A stretch of DNA of 46,459 nucleotides from Gammaproteobacteria bacterium (lineage in GTDB: Bacteria; Pseudomonadota; Gammaproteobacteria; GRL18): the NCBI GenBank assembly GCA_015231865.1, contig JADGAU010000007.1, forward strand, positions 1 to 46,459. The letters run 5' to 3'. Each line of letters opens with the position of its first letter. Position 1 is the first letter of the stretch. A model generated the notes under the pieces. The model did no database searches. It was not told the DNA's origin and worked only from the letters and a program-made list of their open reading frames with translations. Of this stretch, positions 15,189 to 46,459 are shown piece by piece. The translations under genes and the position numbers were made by a program.

Positions 15189-15755
15189 TTATTGTCGAAT
15201 AATCTCGCCAGTCAATAGATCGATAATTTGTGAAGGTTTTGAGTTCTCGTTTACTTCACCATCAATGATATAATCTAAAAGATTATTAAATTGTTTATGT
15301 ATTTCCTTAACATTACCACAGGTAGCTTGCCCTGATATATTGGCGCTAGTTGAAGTTATCGGTTGTTGCAAAGCATTACAAATTGATTGAATAATAGGGT
15401 GGCTAGAAGTTCGGATGGCTATTTTCTTGTCATCAGATAAATGCTTGCCGCAAAGTAATTCTGATAAGTGAGGTAATGCGGGAACTATCCAGGTTGTAGC
15501 TTGTGTTGCAGATTGAATTGTTCGCTGTTGTTGAGACGATAATGGCTGGATAAAATCTTTAAATTGCGCAAGCTCATGGGCAATAATTATTAATCCTTTG
15601 TTGCCGGGGCGCTGCTTAAGCGATAATAATTTTTCAATGGCAGAATCTTGTTTTGGATCACAGCCTAACCCATAAACTGTTTCTGTTGGATAAGCGATAA
15701 CACCACCGTTTAAGATGATATGACATGCCTCTTTAATGATATTTTTATAATTCAA
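15189..15755 (-). CDS. tsaC: L-threonylcarbamoyladenylate synthase (Sua5/YciO/YrdC family)
   Basis: GGVIAYPTETVYGLGCDP, KQRPGNKGLIIIAHEL, PITSTSANISGQ. Confidence 0.92.
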   Translation of the reverse strand: MNYKNIIKEACHIILNGGVIAYPTETVYGLGCDPKQDSAIEKLLSLKQRPGNKGLIIIAHELAQFKDFIQPLSSQQQRTIQSATQATTWIVPALPHLSELLCGKHLSDDKKIAIRTSSHPIIQSICNALQQPITSTSANISGQATCGNVKEIHKQFNNLLDYIIDGEVNENSKPSQIIDLLTGEIIRQ

Positions 15756-40456: not shown

Positions 40457-42112
<1,656 letters not shown>

Positions 42113-42190
42113 CGGTTAAAACATACCGGACATACCGACCACCTCTAAAGAAACTCTATTTTTTATATGTTTTTTTAGAAAATTGAAAAA

Positions 42191-42263
42191 GGCAACATAA
42201 TATTGGTAATAAAGTTGATTCAAAACAGCTGAAATTACCTCTAAAGTTGCCTTTTTTGTTGCC
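42191..42263. repeat. Nested dyad, first att arm region (GGCAAC/GTTGCC type)
   Basis: GGCAAC 42191-42196, GGTAAT 42205-42210, ATTACC 42234-42239, GTTGCC 42246-42251 and 42258-42263. Confidence 0.75.
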
Positions 42264-42297
42264 TCTGAAAAAATATCGCTGAGTTGATTTTATTACT

Positions 42298-44682
42298 TCA
42301 TAATTTCAGTTTGGCCTGGAACATTTGTTGCTCACCTGTATAGGTCAGTGTATAACCTAAAGCATCATATCCTTTTACTCTTTTATTGAACATTCTTTGA
42401 AGCATGGGTAGTGATTGATCGACATAATCATAAACAATGACTCTTTCTTTCCCTGCATGTTGCCTGTGAATTCGCCCAACATATTGTGCCAATGAGCCTT
42501 TCCAGGAAATAGGTAGTGCGAGAAATAAAGTATCGAGCTTTGCCAGGTCAAAACCTTCTCCAATATATTTTCCGGTTGCGATAAGAACTTGAGTGCTGTT
42601 TATAGATTCTTTTGCTTCTTTTAATTCCTGACTTTTCATTCCACCTCTTAAAACCAGATTACTGATATTATTATCGGTGATTAATTGACTGATAATTAAA
42701 GCGTGTTCTCGCCTTTCAGTTAATATTAATGGCTGACGGTTGTTTTTCACTTCAGAGATGACATCTTCCACAATTTCCTTATTTCGTAATTCATTTTCCA
42801 TTAACCATGTATAAACATGAGATATATTAGGTGAGCGTTCTAGATTAACTAAATTTTCTGGTGGATTGTGATATAAATCTGAAACAATGACTTGTTGCTC
42901 AAAACTTGATTTTAAATCTGACTCAACAACATATCGAACGGGTCCAGCATTCATAAAGATTATCGGTTGATGACCATCCTGACGTTGAATTGTTGCGGTT
43001 ATGCCAAGGACATACTTCGCATGAATTTCATTTAAAATCATTTCATAATTGGGTGCAGAGATATGATGACATTCATCAATGATGATTTGTCCGTATTTGA
43101 AAACAAGAGGATTGACAGTATTGTCCTTACGATTAAATAGACCTTGATAGGTTGCAACATCTATTTGACCGCTGAGTTTCTGCTTACCACCTTTAATTAT
43201 TCCAATATTTACTTCTGCCAGAAAAGATAATAGCCTTTCTTGCCATTGTTCAACCAATTGCCGGGTGTGAACCAAAATTAATGTATTAACTTTTCTTTTG
43301 GCAATGACACCAATGGCTGTTATGGTTTTGCCAAATGCAGTAGGAGCATGAAGAACGCCTGTATTATATTGTGTAAGCTGAGTAACCGCTTTATTCTGCT
43401 CCTCTCGAAGCTCCCCCTGAAATTTTATTTTCCGTAGTTTCTTGCCGGTTTTTCTCTTATCATCATATTTTATTGATACAGATTGTTCTTTCAATAAGTT
43501 TTTTACATCATCCAGGCAACCTCTTGGTAAGATTAAATACTCTTGATCAAAATAAGCCAGACAAATAAATCGAGGTATTCCATTAGTGGAGAACCGTAAG
43601 GATTGTTTTTTGAAAAATACAGGATTAGAAAAACTCGCTATTCTTTTTAATTTTGCTATCAGTCTATCGGGTAATTCATCAATAGGAATATAGATTTTAT
43701 TAGCTAGTACAATCGTAATATTTTCTGGACAATTTTCTATCTTATTTTTATCAATGGGTAAGGTAATTTCCCAAGGTTTTAATTGAGGTTCATCAGTTTT
43801 GTCACTGTGCTGTTGTGCTAAACATTTATATACTTTTGATATTGAAAGCTTTTCAATGGTAGATAAAAAGAACCATTGGTCAAGATATGGATTGAAATTG
43901 TAATCTACAAATTCACTATTCCCTTTTTTCCTGGATTCTTTTTGAAGTGGTAATGCAATAAGGTTTCCAAAACCACCATCAGGCATAATATCTTGATTAG
44001 GGAAAAGTCTATCGTAAGAGTCAAAAGAGACTTTAGAATTATGCTCCATAGCATTATCCAAAAGTAAGAAGCCTAAGTTTCTGGCATCTGATGCTGGAAT
44101 AGCACTTTCAAAAAAGATCCAGACATGTGCTCCATTCCCAGAACGGGAACGCTCAACAGCATATGGAATATCCATTTCAGAGCAAGCTTTAGAAAATGCT
44201 GTTACATCTTCTTGCCACTGGGATTTATCAAAATCAGCTGCTAAAAAGTAACAGGTATTATCTGTTAAAAGGGGATAGATGCCAACGGTTATATTGCCAG
44301 ATAAATGCTCATATAAAACTTGTTTGTTAAGTGGTGAAAATATACGGTTTTGGCATTCACCACATTTGACTTTTGGTTTAAAGCAAATCCCTTGCTTCCA
44401 CTCATTTAAACAAGCGACAGAATATCCACTTTTGTTAAATTTATTTTCCCAGCGTAGTGCATGAATGTCATTACGCCCTTTAAATAAGTCAGAAAAGATT
44501 TGAAGCTTTTGTTCAATAGAAAATGTTTTTGAAGTGTTTAGTATGTGTGTTTCAGTATTATGGTGAGCTAGTTGCTTTTGTAGTTCTTTTTTCTGCTCTT
44601 CAAGTTTAAGCCTTTCTTCATTGATTTTATGCAAACGTTTATCAATCAGTTTAATTTCTAAATTGATATCATTTGTTTTCAT
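42298..44682 (-). CDS. AEP-primase-like / SF2 DEAH-type helicase fusion (TOTE-type AEP helicase)
   Basis: N-terminal coiled coil; primase-like CYFLAADFDKSQW (DxD) and SGNGAHVWIFF (sxH); Zn-like CFKPKVKCGECQ; helicase APTAFGKT, IIDECHH, LGITAT, GKYIGEGFD, QYVGRIHRQHAGK. Confidence 0.85.
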   Translation of the reverse strand: MKTNDINLEIKLIDKRLHKINEERLKLEEQKKELQKQLAHHNTETHILNTSKTFSIEQKLQIFSDLFKGRNDIHALRWENKFNKSGYSVACLNEWKQGICFKPKVKCGECQNRIFSPLNKQVLYEHLSGNITVGIYPLLTDNTCYFLAADFDKSQWQEDVTAFSKACSEMDIPYAVERSRSGNGAHVWIFFESAIPASDARNLGFLLLDNAMEHNSKVSFDSYDRLFPNQDIMPDGGFGNLIALPLQKESRKKGNSEFVDYNFNPYLDQWFFLSTIEKLSISKVYKCLAQQHSDKTDEPQLKPWEITLPIDKNKIENCPENITIVLANKIYIPIDELPDRLIAKLKRIASFSNPVFFKKQSLRFSTNGIPRFICLAYFDQEYLILPRGCLDDVKNLLKEQSVSIKYDDKRKTGKKLRKIKFQGELREEQNKAVTQLTQYNTGVLHAPTAFGKTITAIGVIAKRKVNTLILVHTRQLVEQWQERLLSFLAEVNIGIIKGGKQKLSGQIDVATYQGLFNRKDNTVNPLVFKYGQIIIDECHHISAPNYEMILNEIHAKYVLGITATIQRQDGHQPIIFMNAGPVRYVVESDLKSSFEQQVIVSDLYHNPPENLVNLERSPNISHVYTWLMENELRNKEIVEDVISEVKNNRQPLILTERREHALIISQLITDNNISNLVLRGGMKSQELKEAKESINSTQVLIATGKYIGEGFDLAKLDTLFLALPISWKGSLAQYVGRIHRQHAGKERVIVYDYVDQSLPMLQRMFNKRVKGYDALGYTLTYTGEQQMFQAKLKL

Positions 44683-44866
44683 TTATTATCAAATCCACAT
44701 TATTTGAATTCAGAAGTAAATCAATTATTATTTGGAATAGAAATTTTATATTTCGTTCTTCCACTTATCCTGTGTTAGCACATTTTACGACTAGCAATAA
44801 AATTAATAAAGCCAAATAAAGAAAAGCTAGATTGTTATCCTATTCTAGATATGGCGTATTTAATAA

Positions 44867-44907
44867 TTTAATCACGCCAATATAGTTTGATTAATGGCGT
44901 GATTAAA
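44867..44907. promoter_or_regulatory. 13-bp perfect inverted repeat upstream of fic, likely operator
   Basis: TTTAATCACGCCA (44867-44879) / TGGCGTGATTAAA (44895-44907), 15-nt spacer; related half-site TGGCGTATTTAA at 44852. Confidence 0.7.
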
Positions 44908-44922
44908 GATTATAATCAAGTC

Positions 44923-46032
44923 ATGAAATGGATATGGCAAAACACTGACTGGCCCGACTTTACATACGATGAGAACCTGTTCTCAGATCGTGTGACGGAA
45001 TTTAGGCTAACTTCTGAAAGACTTTGTGGTCGTATTGAAGCTTTGTCCGGTAGTAATCAAAACGAAGCTATCATAGACTTAATGCTATCAGAAGCCATAA
45101 AAACCAGTGCCATTGAAGGTGAAATTCTTGACCGAGATTCTGTACGCTCTTCACTCTTATCTTTAATCAATTCAGATACTTTAGCACCAACAAAAGATCT
45201 AAAAGGAGCTGGTGCTGCTTCATTATTGGTAGATGTTAGAAAAAAATGGTCGCAACCACTTAGCCATGATTTATTAGGTCAATGGCAGGCCATGGCTGTA
45301 CCGGAACATAGAACATCACTTATCTTGCGTGGAGATTATCGAACTGATCCAGCTCCTATGCAGATTGTGAGTGGTTTTTATGGCAGACATAAAGTACATT
45401 ATGAAGCACCTCCAGCAGCTCAGATTATGGATGAAATGAATGCTTTTATTGACTGGTATAATAAAACTACGCCACGAGATGAAAGAACAGAATTGTCCGG
45501 AGTAATACGTGCCGGAATTGCTCATGTCTGGTTTGAGACAATCCATCCTTTTGATGATGGTAATGGCCGTGTTGGCAGAGCAATTGCCGATCATGCACTT
45601 TCACAATCTCTGGGTTATCCGACATTAGCTTGCCTTGCAACTGCGATAGAAAGTAAGAAAAAACAATACTATCAGGAACTAGAACAGGTCGGTCGAGGAA
45701 AATTAAATCTAAATAAATGGTTAGAATATTTTACCTATGCCGTCATACATGCACAGTCTATTGCAAAGGAAGAAGTTGATTTTGTACTGAATAAAACCAG
45801 GTTTTATGATAGGTTTGCTGAACAATTAAATGAACGCCAGGCTAAAGTTGTTGAGCGAATATTTACTGAAGGGCGAAAAGGTTTTGAAGGTGGGCTATCG
45901 ACTAAAAATTATATGACGATAGCTAAATGTCCGAATCGTACCGCCAGTCGTGATTTATCGGATATGTTGGACAAAGGTATTATTTCTAAATATGGAGCAG
46001 GTCGTTCTACTCGATATGAATTGCATCTTTAA
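44923..46032 (+). CDS. Fic family protein (DUF4172-like N-terminus, Fic domain, C-terminal winged-helix-like region)
   Basis: HPFDDGNGRVGRA active-site motif; N-terminal TSAIEG matches the (S/T)xxxE(G/N) inhibitory motif; ATG 44923 (MKWIWQNTDWPDF) preferred over TTG 44887. Confidence 0.92.
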   Translation: MKWIWQNTDWPDFTYDENLFSDRVTEFRLTSERLCGRIEALSGSNQNEAIIDLMLSEAIKTSAIEGEILDRDSVRSSLLSLINSDTLAPTKDLKGAGAASLLVDVRKKWSQPLSHDLLGQWQAMAVPEHRTSLILRGDYRTDPAPMQIVSGFYGRHKVHYEAPPAAQIMDEMNAFIDWYNKTTPRDERTELSGVIRAGIAHVWFETIHPFDDGNGRVGRAIADHALSQSLGYPTLACLATAIESKKKQYYQELEQVGRGKLNLNKWLEYFTYAVIHAQSIAKEEVDFVLNKTRFYDRFAEQLNERQAKVVERIFTEGRKGFEGGLSTKNYMTIAKCPNRTASRDLSDMLDKGIISKYGAGRSTRYELHL

Positions 46033-46081
46033 CTTCAGTTTTAAGTTGGAAACCCCAAAGGGCACCAAGGTAATTTTATCA

Positions 46082-46102
46082 TGGGGTATATTTTGGGGTA
46101 TA
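46082..46102. repeat. Direct repeat TGGGGTATA-ttt-TGGGGTATA near the right end of the groEL element
   Basis: Exact 9-bp repeats at 46082-46090 and 46094-46102, about 50 bp left of the second att core. Confidence 0.75.
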
Positions 46103-46150
46103 AGTGAATCAAGTTAAAATAAAACATAATAAAAACAATTGCATATGTTC

Positions 46151-46169
46151 GTATGGGCGGTATGATGTA
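46151..46169. repeat. Direct repeat copy 2: putative att core (duplicated groEL 3' end)
   Basis: GTATGGGCGGTATGATGTA, followed by A so that it restores an in-frame MGGMM-stop. Confidence 0.85.
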
Positions 46170-46233
46170 ACTATTAACCCATAACAATCATTCCCTTTAT
46201 AATCAATAGGTTATAAAGACGAAAATTGAAAAA

Positions 46234-46435
46234 GGTAACATATTGGTAACAACATCGGTTCAAAATCGGTGAAAATACCTCTAAATGTTACCTTTTTTGT
46301 TACCTTTTATAAGGGTAACCGAGAGTCGTTTAAATTATTGATTCTATTGTATTTATAAGTGTTTTTCTGAACCGTTTTTTCATCAAAAAACAGCCAAAAT
46401 GTTACCTTTTTCAAAAAGTAACAGAAAAGGTAACC
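46234..46435. repeat. Second att arm region (GGTAAC/GTTACC type), with additional copies to the window edge
   Basis: GGTAAC at 46234, 46245, 46314, 46429; GTTACC at 46287, 46299, 46401; near-palindrome TGTTACCTTTTTcaAAAAGTAACA about 46400-46422. Confidence 0.75.
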
Positions 46436-46459
46436 TTCTTTCTTCTTTTGATTAAATGA

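Follow-up and report, generated by a model that had tools for sequence, protein, structure and literature searches.

Two short arrays of repeated arms downstream of groEL, arrays A and B, carry different arm words, GGCAAC in the one and GGTAAC in the other, and in each array the word has changed as a set. The window, that is the whole stretch of DNA analysed, is an entire contig of 46,459 nucleotides, in which two copies of the groEL tail lie 4.06 kb apart with one array behind each copy. Arrays A and B are probably arm-type sites at the left ends of elements inserted at the groEL 3' end by tyrosine integrases, where the integrases would bind. They look like clusters of docking sites left behind by mobile elements, for which a word switched as a set would be a tidy and largely expected outcome. 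The features of the region are as follows.

40469-42112, plus strand: groEL, the insertion target gene (547-aa ORF; relatives in 55 of 57 genomes)
42093-42111, plus strand: putative core copy 1, GTATGGGCGGTATGATGTA, 19 bp identical to 46151-46169
42186-42263, plus strand: array A, GGCAAC type, two plus-strand arms followed by three minus-strand arms; hairpin fold with a U tract
42298-44682, minus strand: putative cargo gene for a TOTE-type archaeo-eukaryotic primase and helicase, 794 aa (Pfam AEP-TOTE 4e-100, ResIII 3e-26)
44887-46032, plus strand: putative cargo gene, its listed start codon being TTG, for a 381-aa protein with a Fic domain and DUF4172 (Pfam Fic 1e-15, DUF4172 3e-25; PADLOC SoFic 2e-41)
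46083-46102, plus strand: arm pair of the P4-like right-end type, two copies of GGGGTATA at 46083 and 46095, spaced by 12 bp and lying 70 bp ahead of the second tail
46151-46169, plus strand: putative core copy 2, a non-coding duplicate of the groEL 3' end, 19 bp identical to 42093-42111
46229-46319, plus strand: array B, GGTAAC type, two plus-strand arms, three minus-strand arms and a further plus-strand copy at 46314
46394-46437, plus strand: another cluster of GGTAAC arms, which repeats part of array B in the opposite orientation (inverted repeats I1, 25 nt, 88%, and I4, 21 nt, 95%)

The identical 19-bp copies flank the insert as a duplicated core would, and other elements at the groEL site suggest that this tail serves as the recombination core. 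Array A starts 74 bp past the groEL stop codon and array B 59 bp past the non-coding tail copy; the right end of the window falls 155 bp past the right array and 289 bp past the second tail. Family members that carry no insertion mostly have an ordinary GC-rich terminator behind groEL with no such dyad, and the array is absent from relatives with an ordinary terminator or unrelated sequence after the gene. The surroundings of groEL also differ in this lineage, since a Sua5/YrdC-like gene that neighbors groEL in several relatives is found here at 15534-15737. In one relative (G006, L053:43-1449), a 468-aa integron-integrase-like protein is encoded directly behind groEL on the opposite strand.

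The sequence-only reading had proposed that a C-to-T change is mirrored on all outer arms, and every arm was recovered where it had been placed. Array A has GGCAAC at 42191 with GTTGCC at 42246 and 42258, and array B has GGTAAC at 46234 and 46245 with GTTACC at 46287 and 46299. Both words are strongly enriched and mutually exclusive. GGCAAC occurs three times in array A against 0.04 expected from dinucleotide shuffles, with no GGTAAC, while the 289 bp behind the second tail hold seven copies of GGTAAC against 0.16 expected (maximum of 3 in 2000 dinucleotide shuffles) and no GGCAAC. The inner arms, said to be kept in both arrays, are complete on the left (GGTAAT at 42205, ATTACC at 42234); on the right the inner 3' arm amounts to TACC alone (46276-46279), leaving a weak GGTA/TACC dyad. 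The two arrays can be aligned as homologs, with 82% identity (E = 6.7e-17). Arms of array B are spaced by 11 and 12 bp and the 3' arms of array A by 12 bp, close to the core and within the 10-13 bp of tandem arm sites; the 5' arm pair of array A is spaced by 14 bp. Further exact GGTAAC copies on the right, at 46314, 46401 and 46429, and a degenerate one near 46418 had gone unlisted in that reading, as had the inverted cluster and the 19-bp duplication of the groEL tail.

The insert between the two tails has a right end of a different type. The sequence GGGGTATATTTTGGGGTATA lies at -70 relative to the second tail, with exactly the geometry of three P4-like groEL elements, whose right ends have an arm pair spaced by 12 bp and placed 70-71 bp before the tail (-71 in L304, -70 in G366, -70 in G100). 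Behind the left core, the place of the Arm-DNA-bind_3 integrase of P4-like elements is occupied by the TOTE gene, and neither ORFs nor Pfam revealed an integrase between the two tails. Because the right end is of the P4-like type and the left end of the GGCAAC type, the insert is read as composite. The segment 42113-46150 would then be a decayed composite, with array A on its left, the P4-like GGGGTATA arms on its right, TOTE and Fic genes as cargo, and no integrase. No clusters of the arm words were found near the integrase loci of the same genome. The window shows no right end for array B, and neither a contig continuing the window nor another end of the GGTAAC element turned up in searches. 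The solitary TOTE primase-helicase beside a DUF4172-Fic protein in an integration hotspot (42298-46032) may be a small cargo with a defence function; Acinetobacter plasmids encode relatives of the TOTE protein with 56% identity.

Two further arrays were identified, each in a member of the family. Array C, with GGTAGC/GCTACC arms and one stray GTTACC, has the same layout behind groEL in a Thiohalomonas sp. MAG (G011, JAIVER010000050.1). Array D, which is more diverged, has GAGTAGC/GCTACTC arms (AAAAGAGTAG ... TTTGCTACACGTTTGCTACTCTTTTTTT) and occupies the same place behind groEL in another genome (G001). A loosened pattern of the array start matched only three times in 24 family genomes (A, B and C), always behind groEL. 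The dyad pattern, run against 85,488 species genomes, gave 106 stretches, among which only the Thiohalomonas MAG carrying array C was recognised behind groEL; the others were read as chance or as unrelated hairpins and repeats. A looser scan of viral sequences gave 11 matches, and no array or recognised integrase accompanied any of them. The assemblies of arrays A, B, C and D yielded no linked integrase, and the 141-kb contig of array D has no integrase and no second tail within 74 kb. A tandem repeat of TTGCTAC, sought as the other ends of C and D, was found in three relatives, where it precedes a gene with no relation to groEL, and at one place between unrelated genes in the genome of the window.

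Integration at groEL is already known, and its tail is heavily used by phages and P4-like islands. Viral contigs scanned for this tail returned at least 120 stretches, many of which are phage-carried groEL-like genes, and among the matches listed there are more than 20 att junctions, with the near end of the integrase 42-230 bp behind the tail. Tandem repeats with a period of 11-12 bp are found at these junctions, including GGGGCAAA, TTGGTCAC, CATCCCAT, GGGTAAC, TTGTTGCC, TTGACCAC, AATCACAT, GGGGTATC and others. Where both sides of the att are visible, the arm word is usually identical on the two sides (L216, L226, L247, L270, L291, L296, L299, L304, G100 and G366). The words differ in L213 and L239, where the tail is probably the junction of two elements. 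Five genomes from a class search for two tails were examined further; G366 and G100 have P4-like islands with identical arms at both ends, the tails of G366 being 7.6 kb apart. Two integrases from the groEL site have Arm-DNA-bind_3 and Arm-DNA-bind_4 domains. Three groEL prophages (L201, L210, L293) have TTACTCACA arms, spaced by 12 bp and starting some 62 bp past the tail, with a small possible excisionase gene alongside; in L293 the arm is present once only.

The relation between arm word and integrase was examined for 17 integrases at groEL, with arm words picked by hand. In six integrase pairs with at least 64% identity, arm similarity was 0.88-1.0. The arms of L296 and L300, at 58% identity, also match, and the other listed pairs at 51-63% identity have similarities of 0.38-0.62. 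Mantel tests over all 17 gave r = 0.10 (P = 0.14) for the full protein and r = 0.19 (P = 0.03) for the N-terminus, with r = 0.02 for the 13 non-P4-like integrases alone. In these other groEL phages the arm motif clearly tracks the integrase only among close relatives. Since arm likeness is confined to close integrases and the Mantel correlation is weak, arm words appear to change fast relative to the protein.

The preferred mechanism can be outlined as follows. Tyrosine integrases would insert elements at the groEL 3' end with the 19-bp tail as core. The arm-binding domain of such an integrase would contact several short sites in each att, and a shift in its specificity would be followed by all of them. 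With this shared specificity, GGCAAC (A), GGTAAC (B), GGTAGC (C) and GAGTAGC (D) would each change as a set, unpaired copies included. On this view array B would mark the left end of another element, the rest of which lies beyond the end of the contig. The arms are laid out as a palindrome and would also fold into a strong hairpin that may have a further role in halting transcription of groEL. Several points count against this mechanism, namely arrays A to D without a linked integrase, an insert with unlike motifs at its ends, and array D without a second tail within 74 kb. Local duplication or gene conversion could be another route to one letter throughout an array.

An alternative, judged unlikely, is that the dyads are RNA hairpins terminating groEL transcription and that the mirrored changes are ordinary compensatory base-pair changes. 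All four arrays fold far better than shuffled sequences, with z-scores of -4.45 (A), -5.25 (B), -7.20 (C) and -5.2 (D). The outer stem leads into a T tract, giving a stable hairpin directly before a U tract as in intrinsic terminators, with an unusually long loop, and relatives have a terminator at about the same place. Across A-D, 4 of the 11 outer-stem pairs are changed on both sides, against 0-1 for slid partners, a count that is biased upwards because the arms were chosen for complementarity, and that draws on four sequences only. The innermost stem is itself no arm motif and exceeds chance in B (P = 0.004) and C (P = 0.010), which plain protein sites leave unexplained, with P = 0.076 in A and 0.65 in D; B and C retain it with sequences that differ. 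Against termination as the whole explanation, the copies outside the hairpin have switched too (42258 in A; 46299, 46314, 46401 and 46429 in B; two in C). Of 8 exact GGYARC-type copies outside the main hairpins, 7 are of the type of their own array (A contributes one, B four and C two; the exception is also in C), and the same letters in unpaired copies disfavor a purely RNA reading. In addition, P4-like elements have a separate terminator ahead of a similar nested array, and neither A nor B is flagged by a simple terminator scan, whose loop limit of 8 leaves out loops so long. An Rfam search returned nothing relevant, and a hairpin directly behind the tail is no general feature of elements at the groEL site. 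The sequence-only reading had offered arm-type sites that co-evolve with two recombinase or excisionase specificities, or else a conserved RNA structure. The hairpin is supported, as a second choice; arm-type sites fare better, with arrays behind duplicated groEL tails, matching arm spacing at this hotspot and the motif outside the hairpin. These data suggest that the protein sites are primary and that the hairpin may be a by-product or a second function.

It is doubtful that array B is the original sequence behind groEL, moved away from the gene by one insertion, with array A a related copy carried in with the element from another host, which would make the arrays a host feature and not integrase sites. 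A single element would suffice here, B follows the right-hand core, D has no visible element, and groEL-targeting elements do bring their own sequence behind the tail. Most family members, however, show nothing similar behind groEL, and B has seven GGTAAC copies reaching to about 265 bp past the tail, with no gene evident before the contig end. The arrays are very improbable as iterons of a satellite-like element's replication origin, bound by its initiator: although they are short repeats in both orientations with an element-specific motif, and a primase-helicase gene adjoins A, they lie a short and similar distance from the recombination core, as do arm sites of other groEL-site elements, and no initiator is linked to them. 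Integron attC sites carry RYYYAAC/GTTRRRY boxes with the inner boxes inverted relative to the outer. They were rejected as candidates, as GTTRCCT does not match GTTRRRY, array C carries GCTACC, and the inner arms run in the same direction as the outer. A speculative combination, also rather improbable, is that one palindromic array does two jobs, integrase docking and an element-supplied groEL terminator, and that changes of word let tandem elements share a core without mutual excision.

If arm-type sites are the correct reading, this locus offers four natural variants of an array and lets the arms of an attachment site be seen changing as a set. Co-variation of dyad arms need not mean RNA structure, and any copies that lie beyond the stem have to be examined as well. 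Where elements share a core, fixed distances from it, such as the -70 of P4-like right ends, can reveal remnants of elements once the integrase is lost.

Among known systems, P4-like islands (PF13356; G366, G240, G100, G003, L304) share with the window the core, the 12-bp right-end arm pair at -70 and, on the left, a nested ++/-- arm array that folds into a hairpin (z -1.9 to -6.6). They differ in having the integrase directly after the array and a separate conserved terminator, whereas the window arrays have GGYARC-type arms and a shorter distance to the tail, their first arm being 64-79 bp behind it. In the P4-like elements L304, L307, L311, L313 and L019, a conserved terminator-like hairpin, GCYCGTAARCCYAGTGTTTACGGGCTTTTTT, lies at about +30 to +65 behind the groEL tail, as if the element brought a new terminator for groEL. 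Arm-DNA-bind_4 (PF14657) phages (e.g., L226, L190, L270) have their first arm 52-69 bp behind an identical tail, an 11-bp period and, in some, nearly the same words (GGGTAAC, TTGTTGCC), but only direct repeats with no nested dyad, and an integrase convergent with groEL. The staphylococcal PICI SeCISE48 also inserts at the groEL 3' end, with an att overlapping the last 18 bp of the gene (PMC8125051); it is a complete element with an integrase, and the comparison covered its insertion site. Intrinsic terminators of groEL operons resemble the arrays in position and in a stem leading into a U tract, while the arrays have a very long loop with inner stems and tandem copies outside the stem.
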